From: Rhizophagus irregularis
Lineage: Eukaryota > Glomeromycota > Glomeromycetes > Glomerales > Glomeraceae
Length of the DNA stretch: 64,000 nucleotides
Direction: 5' to 3'
NCBI RefSeq assembly: GCF_026210795.1
Contig: NC_089432.1
Coordinates: forward strand, 4,898,001-4,962,000
Made by a program: the position numbers and the translations under genes
Part shown: in pieces, positions 6,691 through 43,750 of the stretch
Position numbering within the stretch: the first letter of the stretch is position 1
Layout of the letters: every line of letters starts with the position of its first letter
The notes under the pieces: generated by a model
What the model was told of the DNA's origin: nothing
Databases searched by the model: none
The model's input: only the letters and a program-made list of their open reading frames with translations

Positions 6691-7120
6691 AAAAAAATCT
6701 GCTGGCCTATGAAATAAAAAAAAGGGATAAATATAAATAAAAAAGAAAGGGGAATAAAGAATAAATCAAAAAAAAATATTTTTTTAAAAAGAGAGTAACG
6801 AAGTTAGGAGAGTTAAAAAAAATTTTTTTTTTAAAGGGAGGACGTTGTAGCCATAGATACTGAAGTAATCGCATAATATGGAGGAATAATATGGAATAAA
6901 AGATCAAACGATAGAAAGTCACATGATTGGACAAAATTAACCGGAAAGGATAAACTTTTAGGAGAAGGAATGATCTACATGATGTAATGTTTATTAAATG
7001 ATTAACGGAGAACCAATAGATCAAGTGGGGAGTTGATCGATGTGGCTTAGTAACCAGTTTATCAAGTTCAACAATAGGAACAATTAGGAGGAGTAATCAT
7101 AAGCCACAAATGATAAATCA

Positions 7121-7130
7121 TATAAAAAGG
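7121..7130 (+). promoter_or_regulatory. Putative TATA box of the LTR promoter
   Basis: The sequence 'tataaaaagg' is the best TATA match in the LTR and recurs at 18911-18920 in the 3' copy. If it is used, transcription would start near 7150, putting the 69-bp tandem units in the R or U5 part of the transcript. This is inferred from sequence only. Confidence 0.45.
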
Positions 7131-7246
7131 AAGGATAGCGAATTAAAGGAACAAAAAATAGGAACATGTAAAATATTGATGAACTGCAGCCGCAGTAGAA
7201 GAATAGCTGACGAGACGCAGTAGAAAGGATAGCACAGCCACAAAAG

Positions 7247-7660
7247 ATGGATCTTTACGATATAATATTTGAAAGATTATTTTATTTTAAAGAAAAGATA
7301 GCACAGCCACAAAAGATGGATCTTTACGATATAATATTTGAAAGATTATTTTATTTTAAAGAAAAGATAGCACAGCCACAAAAGATGGATCTTTACGATA
7401 TAATATTTGAAAGATTATTTTATTTTAAAGAAAAGATAGCACAGCCACAAAAGATGGATCTTTACGATATAATATTTGAAAGATTATTTTATTTTAAAGA
7501 AAAGATAGCACAGCCACAAAAGATGGATCTTTACAATATAATATTTGAAAGATTATTTTATTTTAAAGAAAAGATAGCACAGCCACAAAAGATGGATCTT
7601 TACGATATAATATTTGAAAGATTATTTTATTTTAAAGAAAAGATAGCACAGCCACAAAAG
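7247..7660 (+). repeat. Six tandem 69-bp units inside the 5' LTR
   Basis: Near-identical units of 69 bp. Because 69 is divisible by three and the unit has no stop, it reads as a repeated 23-residue peptide beginning MDLYDIIFERLF. The fifth unit has one change (GAT to AAT). The open frame (7247-7684) is probably a by-product of the unit length; no evidence shows it is translated. Confidence 0.9.
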
Positions 7661-7941
7661 ATGGATTATATCTTTACGACATAATATGCGAAAGATTATT
7701 TTAAAGAAAAGATAGCATATTAAAATAGTATAACATATTAGAAAAGATAACATATAAAATAGCATATAAGATAGCGCATAAAAGGGAAAACATAACATAA
7801 AATATTAGAAAGAAATAAGAAGTAAGAAAAGAAAGAATAAGAAAGTTGGTTTAAATAGGAGCGGAATGGGAGGTGAATTCCACAGTCGTCAGATACGATG
7901 TAAAACTTTAAGTAAATTAGTTAATTGTGAATTTTATGAAG

Positions 7942-7947
7942 AATAAA
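7942..7947 (+). terminator. Putative polyadenylation signal AATAAA in the LTR
   Basis: The stretch 'gaataaataaaata' carries AATAAA. The equivalent at 19525-19530 in the 3' LTR would end the element's transcript. The assignment rests on the motif and its position in the LTR. Confidence 0.4.
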
Positions 7948-8370
7948 TAAAATACCCTTTATATGAAAATTAATTGTTTCGATTGTTTTTGTTGCTATTT
8001 TCTTATGATGAAAAAGTAATTTTGTTTAATTAATTGTTAGTAAAGCGTAATGTTATTTTAAAGGTAATAGGTTCGCCCTAAACTTTACTGTAATGTTCGC
8101 TTAATTAATTTTAATTGGACAAATTCATGGTGAATTTAATGTCATAACGAGAATTATGAAATGAATAAAATATAAACTTTTGTAAAGAGAACTATCGTAT
8201 TTTTGAAAGAAGATAATGGATGAAATATCGTGGCGAGAGCTATCGCAATTTGAAAGTTAAGTAGTAATAAAACTAAACCAAGCAAGAATATTAATGTATT
8301 CGTGGAGAACGAATATACATTAAAGCAGGGAAGCTTGTTTACCGCTGGGTGGCAGACGGGGGTGACAATT

Positions 8371-8388
8371 TGGTGCATGCTCTGAGAA
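8371..8388 (+). other. Putative primer-binding site
   Basis: TGGTGCATGCTCTGAG begins three bases after the LTR end. PBSs start with TGG because they pair with the CCA end of a tRNA. I cannot name the tRNA from sequence alone. Confidence 0.6.
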
Positions 8389-8935
8389 AGGAAATGTTGA
8401 CTTTGCGTTGACATTTTGACTATCTTCTTATAGTCAAGTACCTATGCGGTATTAAGAAGGAAACGGTTAACAACTAAGTGAATTGATCACTCGCAAAGGG
8501 AAGGATCGTTCCGATCATGGTACCGACGTGGTATTCCGAAGAATCTGAACTCAGAAAAAGAGGTGTTAGAATTAAAATATAATATTGGGGAAAAAGGTTG
8601 TAAGTACCTGAAAAACTTTAAAATGGGAACGGGCAAAATAGCGATATTGTACACCTACCTTAGGAATTATAAAAAGAAGGATGCGGTGATATGATGGAAT
8701 ATAATGAACTCGTTTCAAAATAATAGATTTATTACAGGAAAATCCAGAAAGTATTGTAGTAAGTCACAAAAGTTGTCGTCTTTGAGGTTTTCGCGCTAAT
8801 AATTGTAAAACCGAGAAATTAAGGAAGCCCTCGTAAGATGTGGTATTCTGGGAGGGGCACCATTGTATTTTGCAGATGCCAGAAGTTCCTGGGGATACAA
8901 TGTTGTAACGAAAAGTTGACGAGTAAGCTATAAAC

Positions 8936-9030
8936 TCAAGGGTTACGTGGGAACCTGTTACCAAAACACAAGGGTTGCGTGGGAACCTATTTAAAACACA
9001 AGGGTTACGTGGGAACCTATTACAAAAACA
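8936..9030 (+). repeat. Three ~32-bp tandem repeats in the leader
   Basis: Three copies of 'aagggttacgtgggaacct' spaced about 32 bp apart, with one base change in the middle copy. Confidence 0.8.
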
Positions 9031-9359
9031 CCGGCTGTGAATATAACTTCTTCAGATGGGAATTGAAATAATTGGACTCAGACGTGAGTGAAACATCTCC
9101 CTACTGAAAGCATTTTGAAAATGCGTAATTGAATTCACAAGGCAAAAAGAGAAACCATCGTGAGTATAACTTCTTCAGATAAAACTGAAAGCATTGAGGG
9201 AAATGCGCAACTGAACTCATGAAAAGAAGATAAGTATTATGGGATAAGATGAATAGCAAACCTCGAAACTACTATACTTCATTGTGAAGGTAAAGGCAAG
9301 CCGAGTATAGGTTATTGAATTGTAAAAGATAATAAATAAGAAGAAACACCGTTAAATAA

Positions 9360-9460
9360 GTATAAATGCGTGTGTCGCATAGGTATAAATGCATGTGTCG
9401 CATAAGTATAAATGCGTGTGTCGCATAAGTGTAGATGCGTGTGTCGCATAAAGTATAATA
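9360..9460 (+). repeat. ~24-bp tandem repeats in the leader
   Basis: Four to five copies of 'aaatgcgtgtgtcgcataag' with small changes. The core 'gtgtgtcgcata' could pair weakly with itself. Confidence 0.8.
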
Positions 9461-10318
9461 TGTTGTGTGTCGACATAATGGTTATGATAAGAGTTAGTAC
9501 AAGATTAAACAAAGAAGATATTTTGCGTAATATTAAATATATGGATGTAAAGATTACATATATAATGAAAAAGAACTAAAAAAATTCACGAACTTTAGAA
9601 GTTATGGGAATTTTGAAGTTCGTGAAATGCGAAAATTATAAATTTCGATGATAAAAGAAAATTTTGAGGCGCAGTAAAAACTTAGAAAATTTTTGAAATT
9701 TTTAGAATGCGCAGTAAAAACCTCCGCAGTCTGAGGAGATTGTGGACTTAGAATAATTTTTGAATTAATGGCGCAGTAAAATATATACATGAAATTATGA
9801 AAGATAAGAATAGCAGAAGAAACTTGTGAAGATCAAAAAAAAGAGGATTTAAAGATTGAAAGATTAATATAAGAATATTATGAATAAGTAAAAGATTTAG
9901 AAAAAAAAAATAAGTTGTTAAATGAATATTCATAATGAAAGAAAGATTATACATTCAATATAGGTAATAGGAAAGGACAATATAGTAAAGGATGGTTAGA
10001 AGATCAAAATAGAAGTGATAAAAATGATATATAAGAGAGTGGAATTTCAATTTGAATTCTGGATGAATATTTATAATAATTTAATTGGAGTATACGATGG
10101 AATGGTATCATCAATGGGAAAGTGAATATAGGACACATAAAGAAGAACATGAGTTAAGAACGGGAGAATTAGATGAATGTTTAAATTGTGAATTATGTCA
10201 TCCGATAGAAAATGAACCAATGGTATTCAAGAAATTTTGAGATGCATTATTTAAGTTCGAAGATACAATAATAATATATAATGATGTAACGATCAAGGGA
10301 GTAATAGATTTATTAAGT

Positions 10319-12373
10319 ATGGATAATTCAGAAAGAGAAGATACAATACACAAGGGAAAATGTAGAGACATAATGGATAGAATAACGGAATCAATAAGAT
10401 ATAGGATACAACCAAAAATGAAAGAAAAAGGATTACGAACAATTATATTAGTAATTGTAAGAGATTGTATTGAAGGAGATTTAGAGAATGAAGTATTTGA
10501 TAGATTAATTGGAAATCCTGAATTAATAGAACACAAATATATTTTGGAAGATTGGGATGTTGAAAGAAGGTTTGAAAAATTTTGGCAATGGTACAAGATC
10601 ACATCGAAAGAAGTTGAACCATTACGAGTAAAGATGGGGGCAATAAAGACATTCAGGGAATTACTTTATGAAGAAGAAGGAATAGCTACGAATGAGGAGA
10701 AAGTAAAAGAATTAATGTCCAATATGGAATATGGGAATATAGACATAGAAAATGTTCACGAATATCACAGGAATATGGTACAAAAGATAATAAGAATATT
10801 TATAGATACTAGGGGCTTTACAAAAGAACCAGAAGATTCAGAAAGTGAAGATAGCTTAGAAAGTTATGAAATGAAAAAGAATTTTAACGTGAGTTTATAT
10901 CTTAGATTTGAAAGATTCAGGTACTGGTGGAATGACAAATATGAAGGTAAACGAATACATACATATCATGAAAATGATTCACCAGAATGGTTCGAGAAGA
11001 TGTTATCTGAGAGAGAGAATTTGCAAGAAGATACTGTAAGAAAACTGACAGATAGCATGACATTTAAAGATAGTGAAGATATAGACGCAGGAGATCCTAT
11101 TATATTGGGAATAGATGATGGAGTAATAGAATGGATTGTAACAGATTTAAAAGAAGCGATGGAAAGAACACAAAAATTCAAGTTAGTGGAGATAGAGCAA
11201 GAAGAAGGTAATGAAATATATGATTCCGAAGAGGAAATAGAAATAATAGTGGAAGATGAAACGTGGAAGTTAAGTGAAATAAGGACAGGATTAAGACAAC
11301 TGATAGTAAACCCAAAAGAAAAGCTCATCAGAGAAATAATGAAATTTGGAATAAAAGAAAAGATAGAAACGGGAGTACTGTTGACATATGATTTTATAAG
11401 ATATTATATTTTTCAGGAGGGGAAATTTGATAAGTCTGAAGACATAAAGGAATGGATAGATTTGAGTACAAAAATATGTGGTAGATGCAATAAACAGAAA
11501 TTAGATTATGTGATATCGGAAGAAGACGGCAGATGTGAAGAATGTAATCGGGAAATACGGGAAGATGAACAAGATGAATTAATAGAACTAAAAAACAACT
11601 TAGAAAAATTAGGATACGAAATGGATATATCGGAAATTCAAAGAATAAAGAATTTTGGAGTTAATAATCGAATAATGGTAACAGAAGAATTCATAGAAAG
11701 GTATATGGGAATAATAGAATTAGAAGATAGAGAGTTAAGAAAAGAGATTCATAAGTGGTTAAATGAGAATACAACTTGGTGCGAAAGATGCGAAATAAGA
11801 TGGATGAATGATATGTTTAGATTAGAAGGAACTATATGCAAAGTTTGTGAGGAAGAAGATATTGATGAAATTGATGATCGGGTAAAAAGATTGCAAAAGA
11901 TTTTTGAAGATATTGGAACAATGATAACTGAAGAAGAATTGTTAAGATTAACTAGTATGGGATATACAGATGGAGAAATTTTAGATAAAGAATTCATTGA
12001 AATCTTTCAAGAAAATAAGAATGAGTCGGAAAAAGAATTGAAGAAAAAGTTAGATAAGTTGTTGAAAGAACAAGCAGGAATAATAGATAGTGAAGAAAGT
12101 GGTGAAAAGAGTGATAATGAAGAATCAGAAGAAGATAATACAGATGATTTAGAAAAGACTGGAGAAATATTAAGTCCGGATGAAATATGGGACGGAAGTG
12201 ATGAAGATTTTGAAGAAGAAGAATCTGAAAATGAAATCGAAAATGTTATAAATACAGGAGGTTTTGGTCTGAATCAAAATTCAGATTCGAATAGTTCATT
12301 AAATTTTAAAATTCTGACACAGAAAGTGAAATATCTGATTACAATTTACAAGAATTATTTCAAGAGAATATAG
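10319..12373 (+). CDS. ORF1: large extra ORF before gag, paired zinc-binding modules
   Basis: The product is 684 residues, acidic and lysine-rich, and I recognise no known family. The same frame is open back to an ATG at 10097, giving an N-terminal stretch with CLNCELC, interrupted only by one TGA at 10238-10240. The protein may therefore really start at 10097, with the TGA as a point mutation (CGA to TGA fits). Two similar modules lie in the C-terminal half. Each has a short helix-like lead, then a CxxC pair about 20 residues from a second CxxC pair: CGRC...CEEC (~11479-11540) and CERC...CKVC (~11780-11850). After each comes a region resembling IxxEELxRLxxMG. The tail is very acidic. Near 12310 the gag frame (-1) takes over the natural-looking acidic sequence and runs without a stop into gag, so ORF1 and gag may form one polyprotein split by a one-base slip. 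The 5-bp gap to gag also allows reinitiation. Possible role (inference): nucleic-acid binding or assembly with Gag. Confidence 0.8.
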   Translation: MDNSEREDTIHKGKCRDIMDRITESIRYRIQPKMKEKGLRTIILVIVRDCIEGDLENEVFDRLIGNPELIEHKYILEDWDVERRFEKFWQWYKITSKEVEPLRVKMGAIKTFRELLYEEEGIATNEEKVKELMSNMEYGNIDIENVHEYHRNMVQKIIRIFIDTRGFTKEPEDSESEDSLESYEMKKNFNVSLYLRFERFRYWWNDKYEGKRIHTYHENDSPEWFEKMLSERENLQEDTVRKLTDSMTFKDSEDIDAGDPIILGIDDGVIEWIVTDLKEAMERTQKFKLVEIEQEEGNEIYDSEEEIEIIVEDETWKLSEIRTGLRQLIVNPKEKLIREIMKFGIKEKIETGVLLTYDFIRYYIFQEGKFDKSEDIKEWIDLSTKICGRCNKQKLDYVISEEDGRCEECNREIREDEQDELIELKNNLEKLGYEMDISEIQRIKNFGVNNRIMVTEEFIERYMGIIELEDRELRKEIHKWLNENTTWCERCEIRWMNDMFRLEGTICKVCEEEDIDEIDDRVKRLQKIFEDIGTMITEEELLRLTSMGYTDGEILDKEFIEIFQENKNESEKELKKKLDKLLKEQAGIIDSEESGEKSDNEESEEDNTDDLEKTGEILSPDEIWDGSDEDFEEEESENEIENVINTGGFGLNQNSDSNSSLNFKILTQKVKYLITIYKNYFKRI

Positions 12374-12378
12374 TAAAT

Positions 12379-14001
12379 ATGGCAAATGAAGCACAAATAA
12401 GAAGAATAATGGAGAATGCTATGGGATTGGCACCAAATGCATTAGATAATGCGTTAGGAGCAGGACAGACTTTGGCGGATAGGATTCAGACCGCAGGAAT
12501 GGGGGGAATAGTAGGTATGCCAACTTTTAGTGGAAAAGAGGATGAAGATATTAATGATTGGATTAGACAATTTGAGATAGCATTTACAGTAAGCGGACGA
12601 CCAGAAGGAAATGTTGGAGGAGGTGTATGTAGACAAAATAAGGCAAATATAGCCATAACTTGTTTGAGAGGAATCGCATTACAATGGTATAATGAAGAAA
12701 AAGAAAAGGTAGCAGCTAATTTAGTGAATTGGTGTGATCATAATGAGGACAGAAATTTGAAAAGAAGATTAATCGACAGATTTACTAGGAATGATGTTCA
12801 AAGAAGAAAAATGTTAGAATTAACAAGAATTAAACAGGGAACAAATGAAAGTGTTGAAGAATATACTAGAAGATTTAGGTCAATATTAAGAGTTGCAACT
12901 AGAGGTCATGCGTTAGATGATTTATATCAAGTGAATTATTTTATTCAAGGGTTAGATGCCATGCTAGGTTATCATGTTAGGAGAAGTAATCCGACGAATC
13001 TGAATGATGCAGTTAACGAAGCAAAAAGAGAAGAGGAAGCGAAAGATGAGTTGTTAATGAAAACAATGGGGTTAGATATGAAACGAGTAGGACAAGAGAA
13101 AAACATGGAAGAAATTTTGAAAGAAGAGACAAATAAATATAAAGGAATGAATCCAATTGCGAAAGAATTACAAAATAAAGAAGTTAAAAGTGATGAATGG
13201 GATGAGTTAATTAATGGAATGAAAAGGTTGGAAGCACATGTAATGCAAAGAAATGAGGCATATGTAATGCAAAGGAATGGGAATGATAGGAGACCGATCG
13301 GAAATAATAATGTCCAAAGAAATAATATGAACTGGGATAGAATGACTTGTTATACATGTGGAAGAAAAGGACATACTTCTAGAGTTTGTAGGGAAGGTCA
13401 AAGAAGATCATATGGAGGAAATAATAAAGGGTCATATAGCCAAAATAATCAAGTTAATTACCTTGATGAAGAATATTATGGTGAAGGATATAATGTGTAT
13501 AATATGGAATATAATGATGAATATGATGGATATAATGAGGGTGATGGATATGATAACTATAATAATGGATTTGATGGATACGAAGTGAATAACTATGAAG
13601 ATGAGGAAAGATACGATATGTTCCCAGTACCACCTAGAAAGAGTGAAAGAAATAAAGACAAGGTTATGAATGATGAAAGAGATAGAAGAAGAAATGCACA
13701 ATGGCAAGGACAACAGCAAAAAGCACAGGGGAATAATAAGAGGGGTTTTACAAAAGAACAATTACAGAAAGGATATGAAACTAGAAAGAATAATAATAGG
13801 TGTCACAATTGTGGACAACAAGGACATTTTGCTAGAGAATGTACAAACGAGAAAGTGAAGTTAAATCGAAATATATCAAATGTTGGAGATTTTGATCCAT
13901 TTGAGCAATTTGTAAATTCAAGCGTACCAATTAATTGGGGACAAATGATGAATGAAAGACCAGAAGTAAGGAAGAAATTATTAAATGGTTTGAGATATTG
14001 A
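12379..14001 (+). CDS. gag: Gag (capsid and nucleocapsid) of the Ty3-type element
   Basis: 540 residues. Residues ~45-230 match the retrotransposon capsid domain: PTFSGKEDEDINDWIRQFE at the start and the EYTRRFRSIL region typical of Ty3 capsids. Two CCHC zinc knuckles follow: CYTCGRKGHTSRVC at residues 324-337 and CHNCGQQGHFAREC at 475-488. They are separated by an unusually long Tyr/Asn/Gly/Asp-rich linker (~350-420) that looks disordered. Gag assembles the particle and its knuckles bind the RNA. The stop is TGA followed by CTA, and the same frame continues open into protease, so readthrough would give Gag-Pro. The gag frame is also open upstream of this ATG for about 23 codons. Confidence 0.92.
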   Translation: MANEAQIRRIMENAMGLAPNALDNALGAGQTLADRIQTAGMGGIVGMPTFSGKEDEDINDWIRQFEIAFTVSGRPEGNVGGGVCRQNKANIAITCLRGIALQWYNEEKEKVAANLVNWCDHNEDRNLKRRLIDRFTRNDVQRRKMLELTRIKQGTNESVEEYTRRFRSILRVATRGHALDDLYQVNYFIQGLDAMLGYHVRRSNPTNLNDAVNEAKREEEAKDELLMKTMGLDMKRVGQEKNMEEILKEETNKYKGMNPIAKELQNKEVKSDEWDELINGMKRLEAHVMQRNEAYVMQRNGNDRRPIGNNNVQRNNMNWDRMTCYTCGRKGHTSRVCREGQRRSYGGNNKGSYSQNNQVNYLDEEYYGEGYNVYNMEYNDEYDGYNEGDGYDNYNNGFDGYEVNNYEDEERYDMFPVPPRKSERNKDKVMNDERDRRRNAQWQGQQQKAQGNNKRGFTKEQLQKGYETRKNNNRCHNCGQQGHFARECTNEKVKLNRNISNVGDFDPFEQFVNSSVPINWGQMMNERPEVRKKLLNGLRY

Positions 14002-14085
14002 CTACACTCGGGGGAATTAAAGAATATTAATCAGAAAGAAGAAAAATCACAAGCAACAAGATGTAATATAATAATTGAGGGAAAA

Positions 14086-14607
14086 ATGATCAGAGCATTA
14101 GTTGATACAGGAGCAGGACCTTCAGTAATAACGAATGAATTGAGAAAGGAATTAAATATACCAATAATGAAGAAAAGTGATGTTGTATTGACAATAGCGG
14201 ATGGAAATAACATAGCTTCATTAGGAAGAGTGGAAATTAGAATAGAAATTGACGAAAATTTAGAAATACCTTTGGAGTTCGAAGTAATCGACTCGAGAAG
14301 AAAAGATTTAATATTAGGAACTGATTTATTAAGATATGGGATAATAAATATGAAAGAAGGTCTGTTAACAATAGAATGGGATAATGGAATATATGAAATA
14401 CCAATTGATTTTAGAGGAAAGAAAAATGTTGAATTTGAGGAGTCAGGGAATAGGGGTGAATTTAATGGAGATCCAAAGAATATAGATGATATAGATGGCA
14501 ATTCTAGTGAAGAGTCAGAGGGTGAAGATGAATATGAGGAGATGGAAAAAGAAGAGTTGTTATCGATTGTAAAAACTGATAGAGAAAAGAGGGATGAGGA
14601 AAAATGA
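14086..14607 (+). CDS. Aspartic protease of the element
   Basis: This is a retropepsin-like domain. The active site LVDTGAGPSVI begins near residue 5 from this Met, and a C-terminal LGTDLLRYG matches the second conserved motif of these proteases. The enzyme dimerises and cleaves the Gag and Pol precursors in the particle. The frame is the same as gag and is open from 14002, directly after the gag TGA, so the natural product is more likely a Gag-Pro readthrough protein than one starting at this ATG. Residues after ~110 are an acidic linker. The end overlaps the RT ORF in ATGA (14604-14607), which suggests termination-reinitiation or a -1 shift as the route to RT. Confidence 0.88.
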   Translation: MIRALVDTGAGPSVITNELRKELNIPIMKKSDVVLTIADGNNIASLGRVEIRIEIDENLEIPLEFEVIDSRRKDLILGTDLLRYGIINMKEGLLTIEWDNGIYEIPIDFRGKKNVEFEESGNRGEFNGDPKNIDDIDGNSSEESEGEDEYEEMEKEELLSIVKTDREKRDEEK

Positions 14608-16937
14608 ATGGTCTTGGCTTTCTGAATGAAGGAGAGACGGTAAAGATGCTAAATGAGAGCAAAGAAGAAAAATTTGAAAAGAAAACACATCTGGGAGAAA
14701 TGAGCGATGAGGAGAGAATAGCATTTAAAAAATTGATAAGGGAATATGAAGATATATTCGAATATGACGAAGAGAAACTGGGAAGGATAAATACAGTTAA
14801 ACATGAAATAATAATTGAAGAAAATCAAGGACCAATAGCACAAAAGAGATATAAAGAAACTGATGAAAAAGGAAAGTTTATAAAGAAAGAAATTGAACAA
14901 TTGTTAAAGATGGGGAAGATAAGAGAATCATGGAGTAATTGGGCATCTCCAGTAACGTTAGCAGGAAAGAAAACTGGAAATTATAGATTTTGTATAGATT
15001 ATAGAAAGCTAAATAATGTGACAAAGTCAGATGAATATCCTTTACCCCGGATAGATGAATTGTTAGAAAAATTTAGAAAGGGAAGTTGGTTCACAAGTTT
15101 GGACTTAGCAGCAGGATATCATCAAGTAGAAATGGCAGAAGAAGATAAAGAGAAAACAGCATTCATTTGTTCACAAGGATTATATGAATACAATGTTATG
15201 CCATTTGGATTGAAGAATGCACCAGGAACATTTCAGAGATTAATGGATAAAATATTAAAAGAATATATAGGAGAATTTGTTACAGTGTATTTAGATGATA
15301 TAATGATTTATTCAGAAGATTTTGAGGAACATATAGAACATGTAGATAAAGTATTGAGTAAATTGAGAGAGAATAATATGATTGTGAAATTGAAGAAATG
15401 TCAGTTTGGATTGAGAAATATAAATTTCTTAGGGCATATAGTAGGAAGAGATGGATTGCGACCGGATAAAGAGAAAGTTGAGAAAATAGAAAATATGAGG
15501 AGGCCAAAAACTGTCACAGAAGTAAGATCATTTTTAGGATTATGTTCATATTATAGGAGATTTATGAAAGGTTTTTCGAAGATAGCAAAACCTTTGCTTA
15601 ACTTAACAAGAAAGAATGAAAAGTTTGAATGGAAAGAAGAACAACAAGAAGCATTTGACGTATTAAGGACAAAATTGACAGAAAATCCAATTTTAGTATA
15701 TCCGGATTTCAGCAGAGAATTTATATTGATAACTGATGGATCTAAGATAGGATTAGGAGCAGTGTTAGCTCAAATGAATGAAGAAAATAAAGAGGTTGTA
15801 ATAGCTTACGCAAGTAGGAGTACAGTTGGAGCAGAGAAGAATTATCCACCAACAGAATTGGAATGCTTAGCGGTATTTTGGGGAATACAACATTTTCAGA
15901 AATATTTAGTAGGAAGGAAATTTATAGTGATAACAGATCACGCAGCATTAAAAGGATTAACAGATGGAAAGGAACAAACGGGAAGGAGAGCAAGATGGGT
16001 AATGAAATTACAACAATTTGATTTTAAAATAGTACATAGAAGTGGAAAGAAAATTAAAAATGCAGATGGATTATCAAGACTGAGATTTAAAGAAAAAGAA
16101 ACAGAAAGGAACGAGAATCAAGAAATAACAAAAATAGAAAGTAATAAGGGGAAATTGAGATATATCAAATTTAGGAATAAATGGTATAATGCTAAAAGAT
16201 TCAAAGGGAGATGGGATGATGAAAAATATTTTACCGATAAAGAAGCAATACTTTTGAATTTGGAGGAAAGGACAGAAAAAGAATTATTAAAGAAATTGGG
16301 AAGAGAAAATAAGCCACAAGTTATTATAATCGACGGAGTGGATGGATTAGGAAAAACAAGTATAGTACAGAATTTGATTAAAGAGTGGGAAAAGCAAGGA
16401 TTAAAAGTAAGATTTAATACATTCAAAAGGAGAAGAAAAGACAAAGGTGAATTTCACGAATCAAAATTAGAAACAGAATGGAAATTTAGAAAGGAAGTAG
16501 TAGAACAAATAAACAGAAGAATGTTAGAATATGATGAAGATACGGATATAATAATTCTGGACAAATCGCCATATTGCGAATATTATTATCAGAAGACGAA
16601 AAGTTTCAACAGAGGATTAATTACTCCACATGGGAACCATGAGATGGAAAAAGAAATATTCAGATTAAAAGGAACAATAGATGAATCAATAGTGATATTT
16701 TTGGAAAAAGATGGCGATGTATGTTGGGAAAATTATATTGGAAGAGAAACAAAGAAAATGGAGAAATCGTCATACCCAACATTAAAGAAAAATGAATATT
16801 TGGACATGGTTAAAATGTTTAAAGAAAACCAGGATGTATACAAAGATACCAAAAGATACAGTCAAATTGAAGTTAGGAATGACGATAGTAGTTGGAGAAA
16901 AGTATATAAGGAGATAGAAAAACACCAAAGAGCTTAA
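14604..16937 (+). CDS. pol: Reverse transcriptase-RNase H fused to a thymidylate-kinase-like domain
   Basis: 777 residues. The RT region includes FCIDYRKLNN, FTSLDLAAGYHQV, MPFGLKNAPGTFQRLM and the catalytic YLDD at 229-232, then the FLGLCSYYRRF connection. RNase H follows with TDGS (D378) and TDHAALKGL (D445). After a linker (~500-570) comes a domain not normal for Ty3 pol. It has the P-loop VIIIDGVDGLGKTSIV (Walker A 578-585), ILDKSPYCEYYYQ (D653) resembling the DRX substrate-binding motif of thymidylate kinases, a charged LID-like stretch GRETKKMEKSS, and a C-terminal helix. These resemble dTMP kinase, which makes dTDP from dTMP, though the usual Arg of DRX is Lys here. The position, after RNase H and before integrase, matches that of dUTPase in some lentiviruses. 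Likely role (inference): raising the dNTP supply for reverse transcription. Another P-loop nucleotide kinase is possible. Confidence 0.93.
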   Translation: MNGLGFLNEGETVKMLNESKEEKFEKKTHLGEMSDEERIAFKKLIREYEDIFEYDEEKLGRINTVKHEIIIEENQGPIAQKRYKETDEKGKFIKKEIEQLLKMGKIRESWSNWASPVTLAGKKTGNYRFCIDYRKLNNVTKSDEYPLPRIDELLEKFRKGSWFTSLDLAAGYHQVEMAEEDKEKTAFICSQGLYEYNVMPFGLKNAPGTFQRLMDKILKEYIGEFVTVYLDDIMIYSEDFEEHIEHVDKVLSKLRENNMIVKLKKCQFGLRNINFLGHIVGRDGLRPDKEKVEKIENMRRPKTVTEVRSFLGLCSYYRRFMKGFSKIAKPLLNLTRKNEKFEWKEEQQEAFDVLRTKLTENPILVYPDFSREFILITDGSKIGLGAVLAQMNEENKEVVIAYASRSTVGAEKNYPPTELECLAVFWGIQHFQKYLVGRKFIVITDHAALKGLTDGKEQTGRRARWVMKLQQFDFKIVHRSGKKIKNADGLSRLRFKEKETERNENQEITKIESNKGKLRYIKFRNKWYNAKRFKGRWDDEKYFTDKEAILLNLEERTEKELLKKLGRENKPQVIIIDGVDGLGKTSIVQNLIKEWEKQGLKVRFNTFKRRRKDKGEFHESKLETEWKFRKEVVEQINRRMLEYDEDTDIIILDKSPYCEYYYQKTKSFNRGLITPHGNHEMEKEIFRLKGTIDESIVIFLEKDGDVCWENYIGRETKKMEKSSYPTLKKNEYLDMVKMFKENQDVYKDTKRYSQIEVRNDDSSWRKVYKEIEKHQRA

Positions 16938-16952
16938 AATTATATTTCCAAA

Positions 16953-17294
16953 ATGGTATTAGGAGATTGTTATATGAATTGGTTTCTTATCTATCGAGTA
17001 AAGGTCGATAAGATATGGAAAGTGACCATAAAAGAAGAAGAGAACGAAACAATTATCCATTTAAGGATTGAAGAAGAAGAAGACTTCATACTAGTAGATG
17101 TACACATTATAATAAGACTAAAAGAGAAAAAGGTGAAATTAATTATGGAAGATGGAAACAATATGATAATAGAAGAAAGACCAATAGAAAAAGGATTAGG
17201 ATGGGTACGATCTAAATTGATTATAGGGAATGAAAAATATATAAGAAGGATAGAAATACCAAGGATCAAAAATAAATCAAGAGATAAAAATTAA
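16953..17294 (+). CDS. Small ORF between pol kinase domain and integrase, unknown
   Basis: 113 residues, unrecognised, rich in Glu, Lys and Ile with a strand-like alternating pattern (for example KVTIKEEENETIIHLRIEEE). It is in the same frame as the RT-kinase ORF and is separated from it only by TAA and 15 bases, so it could be a C-terminal extension reached by readthrough or a separate accessory protein. Purine-rich codon use matches the rest of the element. It ends TAA. No membrane segment or zinc motif is seen. Confidence 0.6.
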   Translation: MVLGDCYMNWFLIYRVKVDKIWKVTIKEEENETIIHLRIEEEEDFILVDVHIIIRLKEKKVKLIMEDGNNMIIEERPIEKGLGWVRSKLIIGNEKYIRRIEIPRIKNKSRDKN

Positions 17295-17417
17295 AAATAT
17301 ATGGAACAGTTATCACGACGCTTTATTTTTACAACACCTTAATTTTTACAACACTTCAACCCTTTATAACATTTCAACCTTTTACAACACTTTAGCTTTT
17401 AGAATTACAACATAGAC
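17295..17417 (+). other. Pyrimidine-rich spacer with ACAAC repeats before integrase
   Basis: About 120 bp with stops in the pol frame and several copies of 'ttacaacactt' or 'ataacatttcaacc'. Its C/T- and CAA-rich composition differs sharply from the A/G-rich ORFs on both sides. It looks like an untranslated leader for integrase, or the 3' part of an intron. Confidence 0.5.
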
Positions 17418-18446
17418 ATGGAAGAGGAAGAATATAATAGGATAGCGAGGAATATCAATGACGAACGGGAATATGAAATTATAGGAGGATTAATTTACAA
17501 AATAAAAGATGAGAAAAGACTAAGAGTGATAAGAAAATACGAATTTGAAGGATTAATGTACATAGCTCATGATCATGAATTATCAGGACACTTTGGGATA
17601 GATGCAACGTATAATAGGATCAAGGATGGGTATTATTGGAAAGGGATGAGAAAAGATGTGGAAGCTTATGTCAAATCATGTAATAATTGTCAGAGAAGAG
17701 GAAAACCAATAGGAAAACATGAACTGAATGTAATCAAAGTTATAGAACCATTTTATCGAATTGGGATTGATGTAGTGGGACCATTACCAGTAACAAAGAG
17801 AAATAATAGATATATAGTTACAGCGATGGATTATTTTACAAAATGGCCTGAAGCAAAGGCATTGGAAACAGCAGATGCTAAGGAAATTGCAAGATTTATT
17901 TATGAAGATATAATATGTAGGCATGGATGTCCAAAGAAGATATTAAGTGATAGAGGGAGTCATTTCAATAATAAATTAGTGAAATCATTAATGGAGGAAT
18001 TTCAGATAAAACATAACTTTTCGACGCCTTATCATCCAAAAACTAATGGGTTAATTGAAAGATTTAATAAGACATTATGTGAATCATTAGCAAAGCTAAG
18101 TAATATCGAAGATTGGGATTTGAAAGTACCAGGAGTATTGTTCGTGTATCGAACTAAAAGGAATGATTCAACGAAAATGGAACCAGGATATTTAATATAT
18201 GGGAGACAAATGAAGACATTGTTAGATTTAGAAGATAAGGAAATTACCATGGCAGAGAGAGTTAATGGGTTGATCGAAGGATTACCAAACATTAGGAATC
18301 AAGCTAAAGAAAATGTCAGGAAATCTCAGGAAAAACAAAAATCGTACCATGATAAAAAGAATAGAATAAAGCAGAAATTACAAATCGGAGATAAAGTACT
18401 ATATTATGACGCAGCAAAAGAAAAACAATGGTCTGGAAAGTTATAA
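17418..18446 (+). CDS. Integrase of the element, C-terminal module cut off by a stop
   Basis: 342 residues as read. The N-terminal HHCC zinc domain (HDHELSGHFG, then CNNCQ) is followed by the catalytic core: D118 (GIDVVGP), D178 (LSDRGSHF) and E214 (NGLIERFNK). The spacing between the last two is exactly 35, the classic DDE pattern. It inserts the cDNA into the genome. A TAA at 18444-18446 interrupts the frame. Beyond it the same frame continues to TGA at 18603-18605 and encodes the GPY/F module (KWKGPYYVHE) usual for Ty3 integrases. This copy therefore probably makes a truncated integrase; a GAA or AAA to TAA change fits. No chromodomain is seen. The ORF has its own ATG after the spacer and is not fused to RT. 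Confidence 0.9.
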   Translation: MEEEEYNRIARNINDEREYEIIGGLIYKIKDEKRLRVIRKYEFEGLMYIAHDHELSGHFGIDATYNRIKDGYYWKGMRKDVEAYVKSCNNCQRRGKPIGKHELNVIKVIEPFYRIGIDVVGPLPVTKRNNRYIVTAMDYFTKWPEAKALETADAKEIARFIYEDIICRHGCPKKILSDRGSHFNNKLVKSLMEEFQIKHNFSTPYHPKTNGLIERFNKTLCESLAKLSNIEDWDLKVPGVLFVYRTKRNDSTKMEPGYLIYGRQMKTLLDLEDKEITMAERVNGLIEGLPNIRNQAKENVRKSQEKQKSYHDKKNRIKQKLQIGDKVLYYDAAKEKQWSGKL

Positions 18447-18620
18447 GAAAAATGGAAAGGACCTTATTATGTACATGAGATAATTTCTAAAGGATCATAC
18501 AGGATTAAAACTATGGAAGGGAAGATATTGAAAACACCAGTAAATGGTGAATTACTGAAAGAATATATTGATAGGACAAATTTTGAAGTAATAGTTCGAA
18601 TTTGATGGGACTCAAATTTT

Positions 18621-18635
18621 AGGTGGGGGGCAAAC
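18621..18635 (+). other. Putative polypurine tract
   Basis: 'aggtgggggg' lies five bases before the 3' LTR. Such G-rich tracts prime plus-strand DNA synthesis. The 5-base offset (caaac) is a little unusual. Confidence 0.55.
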
Positions 18636-19950
18636 TGTAGCCATAGATACTGAAGTAATCGCATAATATGGAGGAATAATATGGAATAAAAGATCAAACG
18701 ATAGAAAGTCACATGATTGGACAAAATTAACCGGAAAGGATAAACTTTTAGGAGAAGGAATGATCTACATGATGTAATGTTTATTAAATGATTAACGGAG
18801 AACCAATAGATCAAGTGGGGAGTTGATCGATGTGGCTTAGTAACCAGTTTATCAAGTTCAACAATAGGAACAATTAGGAGGAGTAATCATAAGCCACAAA
18901 TGATAAATCATATAAAAAGGAAGGATAGCGAATTAAAGGAACAAAAAATAGGAACATGTAAAATATTGATGAACTGCAGCCGCAGTAGAAGAATAGCTGA
19001 CGAGACGCAGTAGAAAGGATAGCACAGCCACAAAAGATGGATCTTTACGATATAATATTTGAAAGATTATTTTATTTTAAAGAAAAGATAGCACAGCTAC
19101 AAAAGATGGATCTTTACGATATAATATTTGAAAGATTATTTTATTTTAAAGAAAAGATAGCACAGCCACAAAAGATGGATCTTTACGATATAATATTTGA
19201 AAGATTATTTTATTTTAAAGAAAAGATAGCACAGCCACAAAAGATGGATTATATCTTTACGACATAATATGCGAAAGATTATTTTAAAGAAAAGATAGCA
19301 TATTAAAATAGTATAACATATTAGAAAAGATAACATATAAAATAGCATATAAGATAGCGCATAAAAGGGAAAACATAACATAAAATATTAGAAAGAAATA
19401 AGAAGTAAGAAAAGAAAGAATAAGAAAGTTGGTTTAAATAGGAGCGGAATGGGAGGTGAATTCCACAGTCGTCAGATACGATGTAAAACTTTAAGTAAAT
19501 TAGTTAATTGTGAATTTTATGAAGAATAAATAAAATACCCTTTATATGAAAATTAATTGTTTCGATTGTTTTTGTTGCTATTTTCTTATGATGAAAAAGT
19601 AATTTTGTTTAATTAATTGTTAGTAAAGCGTAATGTTATTTTAAAGGTAATAGGTTCGCCCTAAACTTTACTGTAATGTTCGCTTAATTAATTTTAATTG
19701 GACAAATTCATGGTGAATTTAATGTCATAACGAGAATTATGAAATGAATAAAATATAAACTTTTGTAAAGAGAACTATCGTATTTTTGAAAGAAGATAAT
19801 GGATGAAATATCGTGGCGAGAGCTATCGCAATTTGAAAGTTAAGTAGTAATAAAACTAAACCAAGCAAGAATATTAATGTATTCGTGGAGAACGAATATA
19901 CATTAAAGCAGGGAAGCTTGTTTACCGCCGGGTGGCAGACGGGGGTGACA
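18636..19950 (+). repeat. 3' LTR (1315 bp)
   Basis: It matches the 5' LTR throughout except for three fewer 69-bp units and a few point changes (for example accgcc versus accgct near its end). The 69-bp units are at 19037-19243. It is followed by ACGT, the target duplication. Confidence 0.95.
19037..19243 (+). repeat. Three tandem 69-bp units in the 3' LTR
   Basis: The same unit occurs six times in the 5' LTR. The first unit here ends 'cagctaca' where the others have 'cagccaca'. Confidence 0.9.
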
Positions 19951-26246: not shown

Positions 26247-26390
26247 ATGATACCCCAGGAATGCCCATATTGCTCAAGAACATTTTCCTCCAAATCTGGA
26301 TATACTCAACATGTTAAACATTGTGTTCCTCCTGTAATTGTTAGTGATAGTGAATCGGATCTCGTAACTGATATTAATATGTTTATTTAA
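26247..26390 (+). CDS. Short C2H2-type zinc finger ORF (47 aa)
   Basis: It starts MIPQECPYCSRTFSSKSGY and continues TQHVKHC. This is a single finger of pattern C-x2-C with a TQHxxHC end, then a short acidic tail. Such single fingers open the N-terminus of several fungal transposases (Plavaka-like group) and related orphan genes. No continuation exon is evident because the palindromic array starts at its stop codon. It could be a truncated transposase start or a real micro-protein. Confidence 0.45.
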   Translation: MIPQECPYCSRTFSSKSGYTQHVKHCVPPVIVSDSESDLVTDINMFI

Positions 26391-27240
26391 AGCAATTGAT
26401 TAAACAATGGTAAGAAAATTTCGAGCGAATTTTTCTTGCCATTGTTCAAAGTATACAATTGTTTATTTTTAAAGCAATTGATTAAACAATGGCAAGAAAA
26501 GTTCGCTCGAAATTTTCTTGCCATTGTTCAAAGTATACAATTGTTTTTTTTTCAAAGTAATTGATTAAACAATGGCAAGAAAAATTCGCTCGAACATTTC
26601 TTGCCATTGTTTAACTCAAGTCTATTGTTTTTTTTTAAAGCAATCGATTAAACAATGGCAAGAAAAATTCGCGCGAATTTTTCTTGCCATTGTTCGAAGT
26701 ATATCATTGTTTATTTTTAAAGCAATTGATTAAACAATGGCAAGAAAATTTCGCTCGAACTTTTCTTGCCATTGTTCAAAGTATACCATTGTTTTTTTTT
26801 TCAAAGTAATTGATTAAACAATGGCAAGAAAAATTCGCTCGAACATTTCTTGCCATTGTTTAACTCAAGTCTATTATTGTTTTTTTTTAAAGCAATTGAT
26901 TAAACAATGGCAAGAAAAATTCGCGCGAACTTTTCTTGCTATTGTTCGAAGCATACCATTGTTTTTTTTTAAAGCAATCGATTAAACAATGACAAGAAAA
27001 ATTCGCGCGAACTTTTCTTGCTATTGTTCAAAGTATACCATTGTTTTTTTTAAAGCAATTGATTAAACAATGGTAAGAAAAATTCGCTTGAACTTTTCTT
27101 CTTGCTATTGTTCAAAGTATATCATTGTTTTTTTTTAAAGCAATTGATTAAACAATGGCAAGAAAAGTTCGCGCGAACTTTTCTTGCCATTGTTCAAAGT
27201 ATACCATTGTTTATTTTTAAAGCAATTAATTAAACAATGA
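26391..27240. repeat. Palindromic hairpin array 1 (about 10 units of ~83 bp)
   Basis: Each unit has a T-run, 'aaagcaattgatta', then a near-perfect palindrome with arms 'aacaatggcaagaaaa' and 'ttttcttgccattgtt' around a TTCGCGCGAA-like centre, then 'caaagtataccattg'. The copy at 27151-27194 is a perfect 44-bp palindrome. Centres vary (gcgcg, gctcg) while the arms stay mostly complementary. No coding content. Confidence 0.95.
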
Positions 27241-27724
27241 CAAAGAAATATTTATTGAATAAATAAAACATAAATTTGTTAACAAGATATCCATTATCTC
27301 AATTAATTTAACGAAATTTGGCCAAAAACCAAAATTTTTACCATTATCAGACACGCAAATTTAATGATTACATATTTATATCTGTGTACCCGCCGTAACG
27401 TATACCTATATGTATAAAATCGATAACATTTAACCGTAGTACCGATCACGTGTATGTTTATCGCAACTGGTTCAATTACGTCAAAAAAATTATTATTTTA
27501 CGACAAAAAAAAATTTGAAATTCTCGTTTATTTATTATGAAACCAATATAAAGATTTATTGAACTTGAAAATATTAGCGATTGAAACTTAATTTTCCTTA
27601 AATTTAGGCCTTTATAAAGTTAAAAGTAAATTGACATTCCCGATCATCAAAATAAATAAAAATTTACGAAAACTTTATTCTTATAAAGATGAAAAAATGT
27701 TATTTTATTATCAGCTTGCAGTTA
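27241..27724. other. Gene-free stretch downstream of tnp2-type gene
   Basis: AT-rich; it would hold the 3' end of the minus-strand transposase transcript. No terminal inverted repeat of that element was identified here. Confidence 0.4.
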
Positions 27725-33514: not shown

Positions 33515-33995
33515 TCATTTACTTTTTTTTATAAACTAAAATAAAAAATGTTTTAAATTTGTAATGTTCGCAAATAATCACCAGCCTCTATAAAAAATTT
33601 CATACGTTATAGCGTATTTTCTATAGATACGGTATTTTTTTATATTATTTTTATTATAAATTTTACAACTTTATGAACTTTATATTAAATACTACATTTT
33701 AAACCCATATGTTTATAATGTATACTTCGACACTAGTATGCACTACCCAAAAATTTACTGATGTAAAGAAAAATTCACAAGAATTTTCATTAATACTGTT
33801 TAATTTTTAAGTTCAAAGTCCGATTGATAATACTGTTATACTGTTTAATTTTTAAAGCTCAATTATAAATCAAATTTAATAAATTAGTATTAAGATTTTA
33901 ATTTAAAGATTAAGCAGTATCAAGGAATATTCTCGCGAATTTTTCTTGATACTGCTTAATTCTAATTAGCTAATTTAGTACTAATGTTTTAATTT
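33515..33995. other. Gene-free stretch with 'gttcgcaaataatcaccag' relic
   Basis: 33563-33640 matches the flank and unit of the 54-bp array at 44.8 kb ('gttcgcaaataatcaccag...catacgttatagcgtat'). At 33913-33958 a single palindrome has arms 'taagcagtatcaag' and 'cttgatactgctta'. No gene is seen. Confidence 0.5.
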
Positions 33996-34002
33996 AAAAA
34001 TT

Positions 34003-34960
34003 AAGCAGTATCAAGAAAAATTCGCTCGAACTTTTCTTGCCATTGTTCGAAGTATACCATTGTTTTTTTTTAAAGCAATTGATTAAACAATGGCAAGAAA
34101 AATTCGCTCGAACTTTCTTGCTATTGTTCAAAGTATATCATTGTTTTTTTTTAAAAGCAATTGATTAAATAATGGCAAGAAAAATTCGCGCGAACTTTTC
34201 TTGCTATTGTTCAAAGTATATCATTGTTTATTTAAAGCAATTGATTAAACAATGGTAAGAAAAATTCGCTCGAACTTTTCTTGCTATTGTTCAAAGTATA
34301 CCATTGTTTTTTTTCAAAGTAATTGATTAAACAATGGCAAGAAAAATTAGTTCGAATATTTCTTGCCATTGTTTAACTCAAGTCTATTATTGTTTTTTTT
34401 AAAGCAATTAATTAAACAATGGAAAGAAAAATTCGCTCGAACTTTTCTTGCTATTGTTCAAAGTATATCATTGTTTTTTTTTAAAAGCAATTGATTAAAT
34501 AATGGCAAGAAAAATTCACGCGAACTTTTCTTGCTATTGTTCAAAGTATATCATTGTTTATTTAAAGCAATTGATTAAACAATGGTAAGAAAAATTCGCT
34601 CGAACTTTTCTTGCTATTGTTCAAAGTATACCATTGTTTTTTTTCAAAGTAATTGATTAAACAATGGCAAGAAAAATTCGCTCGAACATTTCTTGCCATT
34701 GTTTAACTCAAGTCTATTATTGTTTTTTTTAAAGCAATTGATTAAACAATGGCAAGAAAAATTCGCTCGAACTTTTCTTGCCATTTTTCAAAGTAGCATT
34801 TTTTTTTTAAAGCAATTGATTAAACAATGGCAAGAAAAGTTCGCGGCTCGAACTTTTCTTGCTATTGTTCGAAGTATAGCATTGTTTTTTTTAAAGCAAT
34901 TGATTAAACAATGGCAAGAAAAATTCGCTCGAATTTTTCTTGCCATTGTTCAAAGTATAT
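34003..34960. repeat. Palindromic hairpin array 2 (about 12 units)
   Basis: The same unit as array 1. The first hairpin is a chimera: its left arm is 'ttaagcagtatcaag' and its right arm 'cttgccattgtt', so the arms only pair in the core. A four-unit block (about 34081-34400) is repeated almost exactly at about 34415-34730, a higher-order duplication. The open frame 34693-34986 is a read of the repeat. Confidence 0.93.
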
Positions 34961-35218
34961 TTTTTGCAAAAACCGAAGCCCTTTAAAACGAAATATAGCC
35001 AAAGCGCAATTAATCCGCAGTACTGTGATACCACAATTAATTGCATTATTGCGGAATTGCGAATATCTGATATATGAACTTTAAACTCCGTAATATCTGC
35101 AATCAATACCCAGAACAAATGTTATGCCAATTACTGTAAGCCAAAGATACCGCGGTTCTATATGATCACGTGAAATTTATTTTTGAAATTTATTTATACA
35201 TACAGTTTACAGTAGGAT
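34961..35218. other. Gene-free spacer
   Basis: It contains 'gcgcaattaatccgcagtac' and 'ccacaattaattgcattatt', two loosely similar pieces, and no ORF of note. Confidence 0.35.
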
Positions 35219-42355: not shown

Positions 42356-42935
42356 TATTAAACCTTAATTAATAAATGAAAATCACATTACATACAATGC
42401 TGGTATATATGAAATGAGTAAAAAAGTCTCAATAAACTTCCTTTTAGGTTTTTTTTTTCGTTTTATTTCTTTTAGAATAAAATACACTAAGCCATCGTGT
42501 CCTGATGTCGAATGTTTGATTGACGTCGAATCAACGCTCGTCCGATGTCATCTCGATTCGCATAATGTTTGTGTGACGTCAAATAGACACCTGTTCGATG
42601 TCATTTCGATGTTTACTTAATGTACACAAGGCGGGAAAAATAAACATTTTTCGACATTAACTTAATATTGAAACAATGTAAGTGCGATGTTATTATTCGA
42701 TGTCTATTCGTTTACTAATCGTAGTTATTCGATGTCGAATCGATATCACTACGATTAGTAAACGAATAGACATCGAATCAACGTATTTAAGTTCAACTTA
42801 AAGATGTCGAATCGATTTTCATCACGACATCATGGTGACGTCTGATCAATATAGAATCGACATTGATTTTATATCGACCGTAACTCTAACTGAAATTTCT
42901 GTAAAGTAATTTACTAAGGTTTTAATTTAAAGATT
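42356..42935. other. Gene-free stretch rich in 'gatgtcgaatcgat' motifs
   Basis: From about 42505 to 42870, variants of 'cgatgtc' and 'gacatcg' or 'gacgtcgaatc' recur on both strands. The region contains the inverted repeat given separately. Confidence 0.6.
42695..42778. repeat. Perfect 30-bp inverted repeat, 24-base loop
   Basis: Arms 42695-42724 and 42749-42778 are exact reverse complements (attcgatgtctattcg... and ...cgaatagacatcgaat). The loop itself contains 'attcgatgtcgaat'. It is probably the core of a small fold-back element. Confidence 0.92.
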
Positions 42936-43750
42936 AAGCGGTATCAAGAAAAATTCGCGCGAACTTTTCTTGCCATTGTTCAAAGTATATCATTGTTTTT
43001 TTTAAAGCAATTGATTAAACAATGGCAAGAAAAGTTCGCACGAACTTTTCTTGCCATTGTTCAAAGTAGCATTTTTTTTTTTAAAGCAATTGATTAAACA
43101 ATGGCAAGAAAAATTCGCGCGAACTTTTCTTGCTATTGTTCGAAGCATACCATTGTTTTTTTTTAAAGCAATTGATTAAACAATGGCAAGAAAAATTCGC
43201 TCGAACTTTTCTTGCTATTGTTCGAAGCATACCATTGTTTTTTTTTAAAGCAATCGATTAAACAATGACAAGAAAAATTCGCGCGAACTTTTCTTGCTAT
43301 TGTTCAAAGTATATCATTGTTTTTTTAAAGCAATTGATTAAACAATGGCAAGAAAAATTCGCTCGAACTTTTCTTGCTATTGTTCGAAGCATACCATTGT
43401 TTTTTTTAAAGCAATTGATTAAACAATAGCAAGTAAAATTCGCGCGAACTTTTCTTGCTATTATTCGAAGTATATCATTGTTTATTTAAAGCAATCGATT
43501 AAACAATGGCAAGAAAAATTCGCTCGAACTTTTCTTCTTGCTATTATTCAAAGTATACCATTGTTTTTTTTTTTTAAAGCAATTGATTAAACAATGGCAA
43601 GAAAAATTCGCGCGAACTTTTCTTGGATTGTTCAAAGTATACCATTGTTTTTTTCAAAGCAATCGATTAAACAATGACAAGAAAAGTTCGCGAATTTTCT
43701 TGATACTGCTTAAAAATTAAAAAAATTAAGCAGTACCAAGGAAAATTCGC
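42936..43750. repeat. Palindromic hairpin array 3 (about 10 units)
   Basis: The same unit as arrays 1 and 2. The first hairpin has left arm 'ttaagcggtatcaag' and right arm 'cttgccattgtt'. The last (43670-43712) has left arm 'aacaatgacaag' and right arm 'cttgatactgctta'. The outer arms of the whole array therefore match each other and not the inner unit. A further hairpin 'ttaagcagtaccaag...cttgtcattgtt' follows at about 43726-43772. Confidence 0.93.

Follow-up and report, generated by a model that had tools for sequence, protein, structure and literature searches.

A thymidylate-kinase-like domain in the pol region of Ty3 retrotransposons of Rhizophagus irregularis

What is a P-loop domain resembling a kinase doing behind the RNase H of a retrotransposon? 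The question is raised by a stretch of 64,000 nucleotides from the fungus Rhizophagus irregularis (the window; contig C4, positions 4898001-4962000), which holds a 13.1-kb Ty3/Gypsy retrotransposon with long terminal repeats (LTRs) at positions 6846-19950. Inside it, reverse transcriptase (RT), RNase H and the domain in question occupy one open reading frame (ORF; 14598-16937, with the first Met two codons in). The first-pass annotation of this DNA had described a kinase-like P-loop domain following RNase H in the same ORF, and this is confirmed by a match to the profile PHROG_761 'thymidylate kinase' (residues 50-261 of the 265-residue piece, E 5.1e-15) and by at least 145 matches to the kinase region, fragments included, in the genome searched (G000; 146.7 Mb in 32 contigs). 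In a single clade of Rhizophagus Ty3 elements the kinase has become a regular component of pol. We favour the reading that it is an active kinase of deoxynucleoside monophosphates (dNMPs) or deoxynucleosides (dNs) serving reverse transcription, to which we give a probability of roughly 0.6.

Kinship and distribution of the domain

The domain almost certainly belongs to the superfamily of thymidylate kinases (TMPKs) and deoxynucleoside kinases (dNKs). Thymidylate kinase is its best whole-domain family profile: Thymidylate_kin (PF02223) matches 29 of the 30 family members at E<=0.01. The deoxynucleoside kinase profile PF01712 does so in only six of the 30 (best E 1.6e-4), the window member not being among them. 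The structure predicted by AlphaFold, a step that the first-pass annotation had proposed, agrees with both the TMPK fold and the dNK fold and thus points to the same superfamily; in a comparison by VIA-align, starting from Foldseek's own ranking, TMPK and dCK/dGK structures tie as matches. Among the observations reported here (fused position, conservation, motifs, selection, contexts, mosaic and fold), the fold is a predicted one.

It had also been asked whether the best profile match might be a non-kinase P-loop family. FtsY/SRP does come first in the NCBIfam and PDB sequence searches, but its match is limited to the P-loop and its surroundings (34 columns when profiles are compared), whereas the matches across the whole domain are nucleotide and nucleoside kinases. 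An FtsY/SRP identity is rejected because TMPKs and dNKs match along the whole domain, both as profiles and as structures.

A survey of related elements bears out the expectation that the fusion is not confined to one copy. The genome contains at least 151 RT matches, of which 150 are listed; this count and that of the kinase matches are lower bounds. Among the listed RTs of 66% identity or more, 120 of 122 have a kinase on the same strand at most 6 kb downstream. By class of RT identity, again among the matches listed, the kinase is present in 22 of 22 (99% or more), 12 of 12 (85-89%), 74 of 76 (71-74%) and 12 of 12 (66-70%). In the two exceptions (C25:3505767 and C13:674007) the same-strand kinase match lies about 9 and about 16 kb downstream, as if there had been an insertion between RT and kinase. 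None of the 28 listed RTs at 60-64% identity has a kinase within 6 kb downstream, and in one element of each of the two 60-64% types (L048, L049) RNase H is followed by integrase with no kinase match.

For 25 kinase matches there is no listed RT within 6 kb upstream; some of these are fragments or second pieces. The RT of L022 is present though unlisted, being split in two pieces. In L025-L028 and L039 the RT is missing at its expected place and only the RNase H tail is left, while an open kinase and an integrase are kept. The kinase codons of L025-L028 are identical and the integrases of L025 and L028 differ, a combination that may be taken as a sign of template switching. Pieces of the ORF that precedes gag in the window (10241-12373) are matched in RT-less elements as well.

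Among database proteins, polyproteins of Rhizophagus irregularis come closest, with P0001 matching at 97% over 95% of the kinase region. Thirty-eight longer database proteins match the kinase, and 37 of them also contain a stretch of RT, RNase H or integrase. The organisms named for the matches are Rhizophagus irregularis, R. clarus, R. diaphanus and Glomus cerebriforme; the rest are mostly metagenome proteins, several of which, about 264 residues long, start with Met and consist of linker and kinase only. A context is thereby gained for metagenome proteins named 'thymidylate kinase' at their source and for the Rhizophagus 'enzymatic polyprotein' entries.

Fusion contexts, mosaic structure and selection

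Leaving the decayed L033 aside, all 17 elements laid out have the kinase after RNase H (or its tail) and before integrase, and in all 17 it is joined to one of these two. In families A (that of the window) and C the order is RNase H-linker-kinase, with a separate integrase ORF after it; in family B the kinase is fused directly to RNase H; in families D and E an RT-RNase H ORF is followed by a kinase on the N end of the integrase. The kinase is kept in all five families opened. The limits first assigned to the domain, 16320..16930, do fall within it, but the core starts at about 16308 and is preceded by a linker filling 16101-16307, which is common to the family C element compared and absent from the family B element compared. 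In the decayed L041 the pieces of the kinase lie separately, some 2 kb beyond RNase H, and an integrase was not found within its 9-kb stretch.

The amino-acid identities between families differ along the polyprotein. Families A and B are 74% identical in RT, 87% in the kinase and 63% in integrase; for A and C the values are 87%, 63% and 85%. The switch in identity along the ORF coincides with the beginning of the kinase core, near 16308, and quick trees of RT and kinase disagree accordingly. The approximately unbiased test rejects a single clade of A and C-lineage kinases without B (p 2.4e-6; the group was named after the quick tree). As the RT and integrase of A are nearest to those of C and its kinase is nearest to that of B, the kinase has apparently moved between lineages; by these comparisons family A is a mosaic in which the kinase derives from one lineage and RT and integrase from another. 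The trees fit A giving or receiving, and, given the faster clock of the kinase, A could be the donor to B.

That the domain was under selection, another claim of the first-pass annotation, is borne out by the ratio of nonsynonymous to synonymous change (omega), which is 0.10 between A and B (dS 0.65) and 0.13 between D and E (dS 0.43), with synonymous change unsaturated. Purifying selection on the kinase codons is clear from these sequence comparisons. Among 21 copies of family A, some of them covering parts only, the pN/pS of the kinase is 0.21 by pair sums, or 0.26 by the segregating changes, of which 37 are nonsynonymous and 30 synonymous, with one stop. By comparison, RT has 0.06-0.08, RNase H 0.09-0.14, the linker 0.22, integrase 0.16-0.22 and the 118-codon ORF at 16938-17294 has 0.38-0.41. 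The 209-codon kinase stretch is open in 11 of 11 family-B loci, RT-less ones included, although these are among the best-scoring matches and the count is biased towards intact copies.

These values bear on the possibility that a host or viral kinase gene was trapped in pol and has stayed open only through its position in the frame, having no function. The kinase is in the RT frame in families A-C, and the RT-less copies show that parts of pol can be lost. In A-C, however, the kinase is C-terminal, so that stops would cost RT nothing, and yet omega is about 0.1, which contradicts a functionless domain. In 2000 simulations with equal rates, an unconstrained frame of the length of the kinase stayed open in 1.8% of runs at 0.1 changes per site and in 0.1% at 0.2. 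Furthermore, in families D and E the kinase sits on the integrase ORF instead. A trapped gene without function is thus highly improbable.

Proposed function and the nature of the acceptor

The working of an active dNMP or dN kinase in the element can be imagined as follows. The kinase would be translated in one chain with RT and RNase H (in families D and E with integrase) and would be packaged into the particle along with RT or integrase. It would phosphorylate a deoxynucleoside monophosphate; dTMP is the likeliest single candidate, but the acceptor may also be a different dNMP or a deoxynucleoside. Host supply of deoxynucleoside triphosphates (dNTPs) limits reverse transcription, and such phosphorylation would raise the local supply where host pools are low. 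It is a more tentative suggestion that a new subfamily of deoxynucleotide kinases is carried by the Ty3 clade and passed between its lineages, and that this kinase travels in the particle with RT or integrase and makes dNTP precursors there. If this is true, a retroelement enzyme builds rather than cleans the nucleotide pool, which perhaps fits mycorrhizal spores and hyphae at rest, with their low dNTP pools, and a mobile element has a new way to loosen its dependence on the host dNTP supply. The five families and their differing fusion contexts allow comparative study.

Several findings weigh against an active kinase serving reverse transcription. The window copy scores 21.5 bits, below the Pfam TMPK cut-off of 27; its relative P0116 passes with 27.4 bits, so that the family straddles the PF02223 cut-off. 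When the whole ORF is compared with Pfam, NB-ARC (E 9.8e-4) and others rank above Thymidylate_kin (E 0.013), all of them below their cut-offs, and in NCBIfam FtsY (1.5e-5) ranks above dTMP kinase (1.8e-4). By hhalign, a single fungal dNK (97.1%, 75.3) is placed ahead of three single TMPKs (87.7-94.5%, 45-55). The Arg of the TMPK motif DRX is replaced by Lys in 30 of 30 aligned members, extending to the family what had been pointed out for the window copy. The kinase protein evolves about four times faster than RT (dN 0.054 versus 0.014 between D and E, 0.25 versus 0.066 between A and C), a rate that suits an accessory enzyme. Finally, the host genome carries TMPK-like exons with a DRY motif and a 336-codon ORF (L086:485-1495, minus strand) with a deoxynucleoside kinase domain (PF01712, E 1.2e-31), and the supply is therefore not obviously lacking.

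The conserved residues give some indication of the acceptor. The 30-row alignment shows no variation in the P-loop residues G46, D48 and K52, in the Asp-Lys pair 121-122 or in the LID-like Arg-Glu 182-183; the same holds for N73, R77 and R79, which follow strand 2. Among 115 homologues and locus ORFs that cover the core, near-identical copies included, the strict pattern GxGK[ST] is found in 106 and YxxRE in 113, while DKSPY is found in 112, DKLLY in one and neither in two. With thymidylate kinase (PF02223; PHROG_761, phage Tmk) the element kinase shares the fold, the P-loop GxDGxGK, the D(R/K) place and the C-terminal LID-like Arg; it differs by the Lys in DRX, the FKRRR Arg cluster after strand 2 and the fusion to RT or integrase. 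Two of the nine columns invariant in an 8-row TMPK set are changed: the DRX Arg, and the Glu before the P-loop Gly, which is mostly Asp here but also Glu, Cys or Asn. Unlike deoxynucleoside kinases (PF01712; dCK, dGK, viral dNKs), the element kinase has Asn where they carry a Glu behind strand 2, the Glu being what we take to be the catalytic base of dNKs. In the hhalign comparison HETIEEWR of the fungal dNK faces FNTFKRRR; its Glu aligns with the Asn invariant in the 30 rows, and its EEW with Arg and Lys. The replacement of Glu by Asn and the Arg cluster would favour a phosphorylated acceptor, though they prove nothing.

A kinase of the same superfamily might nevertheless act on another acceptor, such as a deoxynucleoside, a nucleic-acid end or a small molecule, for example in the repair of cDNA or RNA ends. 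This would agree with the tie between the predicted fold and dCK/dGK, with the match of the fungal dNK over 174 columns, in which DRTP lies over DKSP, with the invariant Lys, and with a weak match of the related protein P0132 to a polynucleotide-kinase PHROG (E 2.6e-4). The Asn at the presumed place of the catalytic Glu, with the Arg cluster next to it, and the six PF01712 matches against 29 for Thymidylate_kin speak against it, and we consider such an acceptor unlikely. An active kinase of dNMPs or dNs remains our preference, but dTMP in particular is a doubtful choice of substrate and is unproven because of the invariant Lys in DRX, the Pfam score below the cut-off and the tie between TMPK and dCK/dGK structures. 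The interpretation of the first-pass annotation as a whole is supported; the dTMP substrate and the supply of nucleotides to the element are what we infer.

The domain might also bind nucleotides without catalysis and play a structural or regulatory part in pol, such as a role in assembly or in countering silencing by the host. The nine of 115 sequences that fail the strict P-loop pattern and the faster evolution of the kinase relative to RT could be explained in this way. On the other hand, all 30 aligned members keep the Lys of Walker A, the Asp-Lys pair and the Arg of the LID-like segment; this is hard to explain without ATP-dependent chemistry and makes a loss of catalysis improbable.

The dUTPase of retroelements keeps dUTP out of cDNA. 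Like the element kinase, it is a captured enzyme of nucleotide metabolism in pol; it is, however, an unrelated enzyme that removes dUTP, whereas the P-loop kinase would add a phosphate. In the available text of PMC4531489, non-primate lentiviruses have dUTPase between RNase H and integrase, the same place as the element kinase, and the enzyme matters in non-dividing cells; the parallel drawn in the first-pass annotation is correct to this extent. Among fungal Ty3 elements, of which PosPlaTy3 is an example, dUTPase seems to have been captured independently, and its position in Pol varies (available text of PMC2864245); the bdelloid rotifer elements Juno, Vesta and TelKA have it between protease (PR) and RT (available text of PMC5408684). 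None of the three papers uses the word 'kinase' in its main text. In the available portions of two papers on R. irregularis transposable elements, kinases figure as expanded host gene families and not as parts of retroelements (PMC8647823, PMC11075540), and no retroelement-borne nucleotide kinase was found among the titles and abstract openings listed in searches of the open-licence PMC literature. We regard the element as a member of Ty3 whose accessory enzyme is new, an accessory of the same kind as dUTPase but a different enzyme.

The nearest relatives found with another architecture are the metagenome proteins P0119 and P0132, with 43 and 37% identity, in which Pfam finds no retroelement domain. 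Their versions of the two motifs, GVDGCGKT and DKSPYSE, resemble those of the element kinase, and they differ by an N-terminal NUDIX domain. The linker was considered as a remnant of that domain, but this is not supported, the best stretch of a linker profile scoring only 3.5 bits in P0119 and -1.5 in P0132. Capture from a host TMPK gene is likewise rejected for a recent event, though not for an ancient origin: the window kinase gave nothing better than E 1.8 in tblastn against loci L031 and L032. A tblastn search of 50,697 phage records returned nothing for the window domain (E<=0.01) or for P0132 (E<=0.001). Three of four scans of viral contigs gave no relative and one gave three loci, and a scan of genome contigs gave at least three; in all six loci the match to the kinase profile centres on the P-loop, and the proteins resemble common ones of the TMPK type. 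A donor of the kinase was thus not found among the phage records, viral contigs and genome contigs scanned.

Layout of the element

Table 1. Features of the Ty3/Gypsy element, in positions of the window
Feature	Position	Strand	Details
5' LTR	6846..8367	+	1522 bp, TG...CA, about 7 copies of a 69-bp tandem unit
Pre-gag ORF	10241..12373	+	710 codons stop to stop, repeated CxxC motifs
gag	12379..14001	+	Retrotrans_gag and CCHC zinc knuckles; ends TGA, then CTA
Aspartic protease ORF	14002..14607	+	same frame as gag
Reverse transcriptase domain (RVT_1)	14967..15443	+	Pfam, residues 124-282, E 1.6e-41
RNase H domain (RT_RNaseH_2 and RT_RNaseH together)	15630..16019	+	Pfam
Linker, RNase H to kinase	16101..16307	+	sequence comparison with families B and C
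Kinase core, TMPK/dNK superfamily	16308..16934	+	stop 16935-16937; about 210 residues
Walker A GVDGLGKT	16335..16358	+	residues 578-585 from first Met
DKSPYCEYYYQ	16560..16592	+	starts at residue 653; occupies TMPK DRX place
YIGRETKK	16734..16757	+	LID-like basic segment; putative role
118-codon ORF	16938..17294	+	weaker purifying selection
Integrase ORF	17403..18446	+	H2C2 zinc finger and rve core
3' LTR	18636..19950	+	1315 bp, about 4 copies of the 69-bp unit

The element is a Ty3/Gypsy LTR retrotransposon by its LTRs, its target-site duplication and its domain order. Both LTRs open with TGTAG and close with TGACA, and a duplicated ACGT flanks the element at both sides. The LTRs had been called nearly identical, and they agree in 1313 of 1315 aligned bases, with two mismatches, apart from 207 extra bases in the 5' LTR. 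This excess corresponds to three copies of the 69-bp unit. As the LTRs are otherwise nearly identical, the array must have changed during or after the last insertion. A few bases 3' of the 5' LTR lies TGGTGCATGCTC, a putative tRNA primer-binding site. The domains follow one another as gag, PR, RT, RNase H and integrase, the order that Ty3/Gypsy requires; the Pfam RNase H match covers residues 370-474 (E 3.1e-36), and the residue numbers originally given for the Walker A and DKSPYCEYYYQ motifs agree with Table 1 when counted from the first Met. The pre-gag ORF gave no Pfam match below E 0.2.

At 13999-14004 a lone TGA, followed by CTA, parts gag from the in-frame protease. The stop codon is TGA at 22 of 22 sites found with a pattern in which the stop was left open (NNN), CTA was built in and at most three mismatches were allowed. 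The TGA-CTA sequence presumably resembles a context for programmed stop readthrough. The protease stop overlaps the first Met of the RT ORF in the window as ATGA (14604-14607); in the B, C and D loci inspected the sequence near this junction reads differently.

Downstream of the kinase, the 118-codon ORF is matched, among the loci laid out, in family A only and was not found in those of families B-E. A pyrimidine-rich tract at 17290-17420 ends in ACATAG-ACATG just upstream of the integrase start, and possibly provides a 3' splice site for integrase expression. Elsewhere in the window, tandem arrays of one related repeat, about 85-93% alike by self-comparison, are dispersed at 26382-27252, 33880-34965 and 42912-43715.
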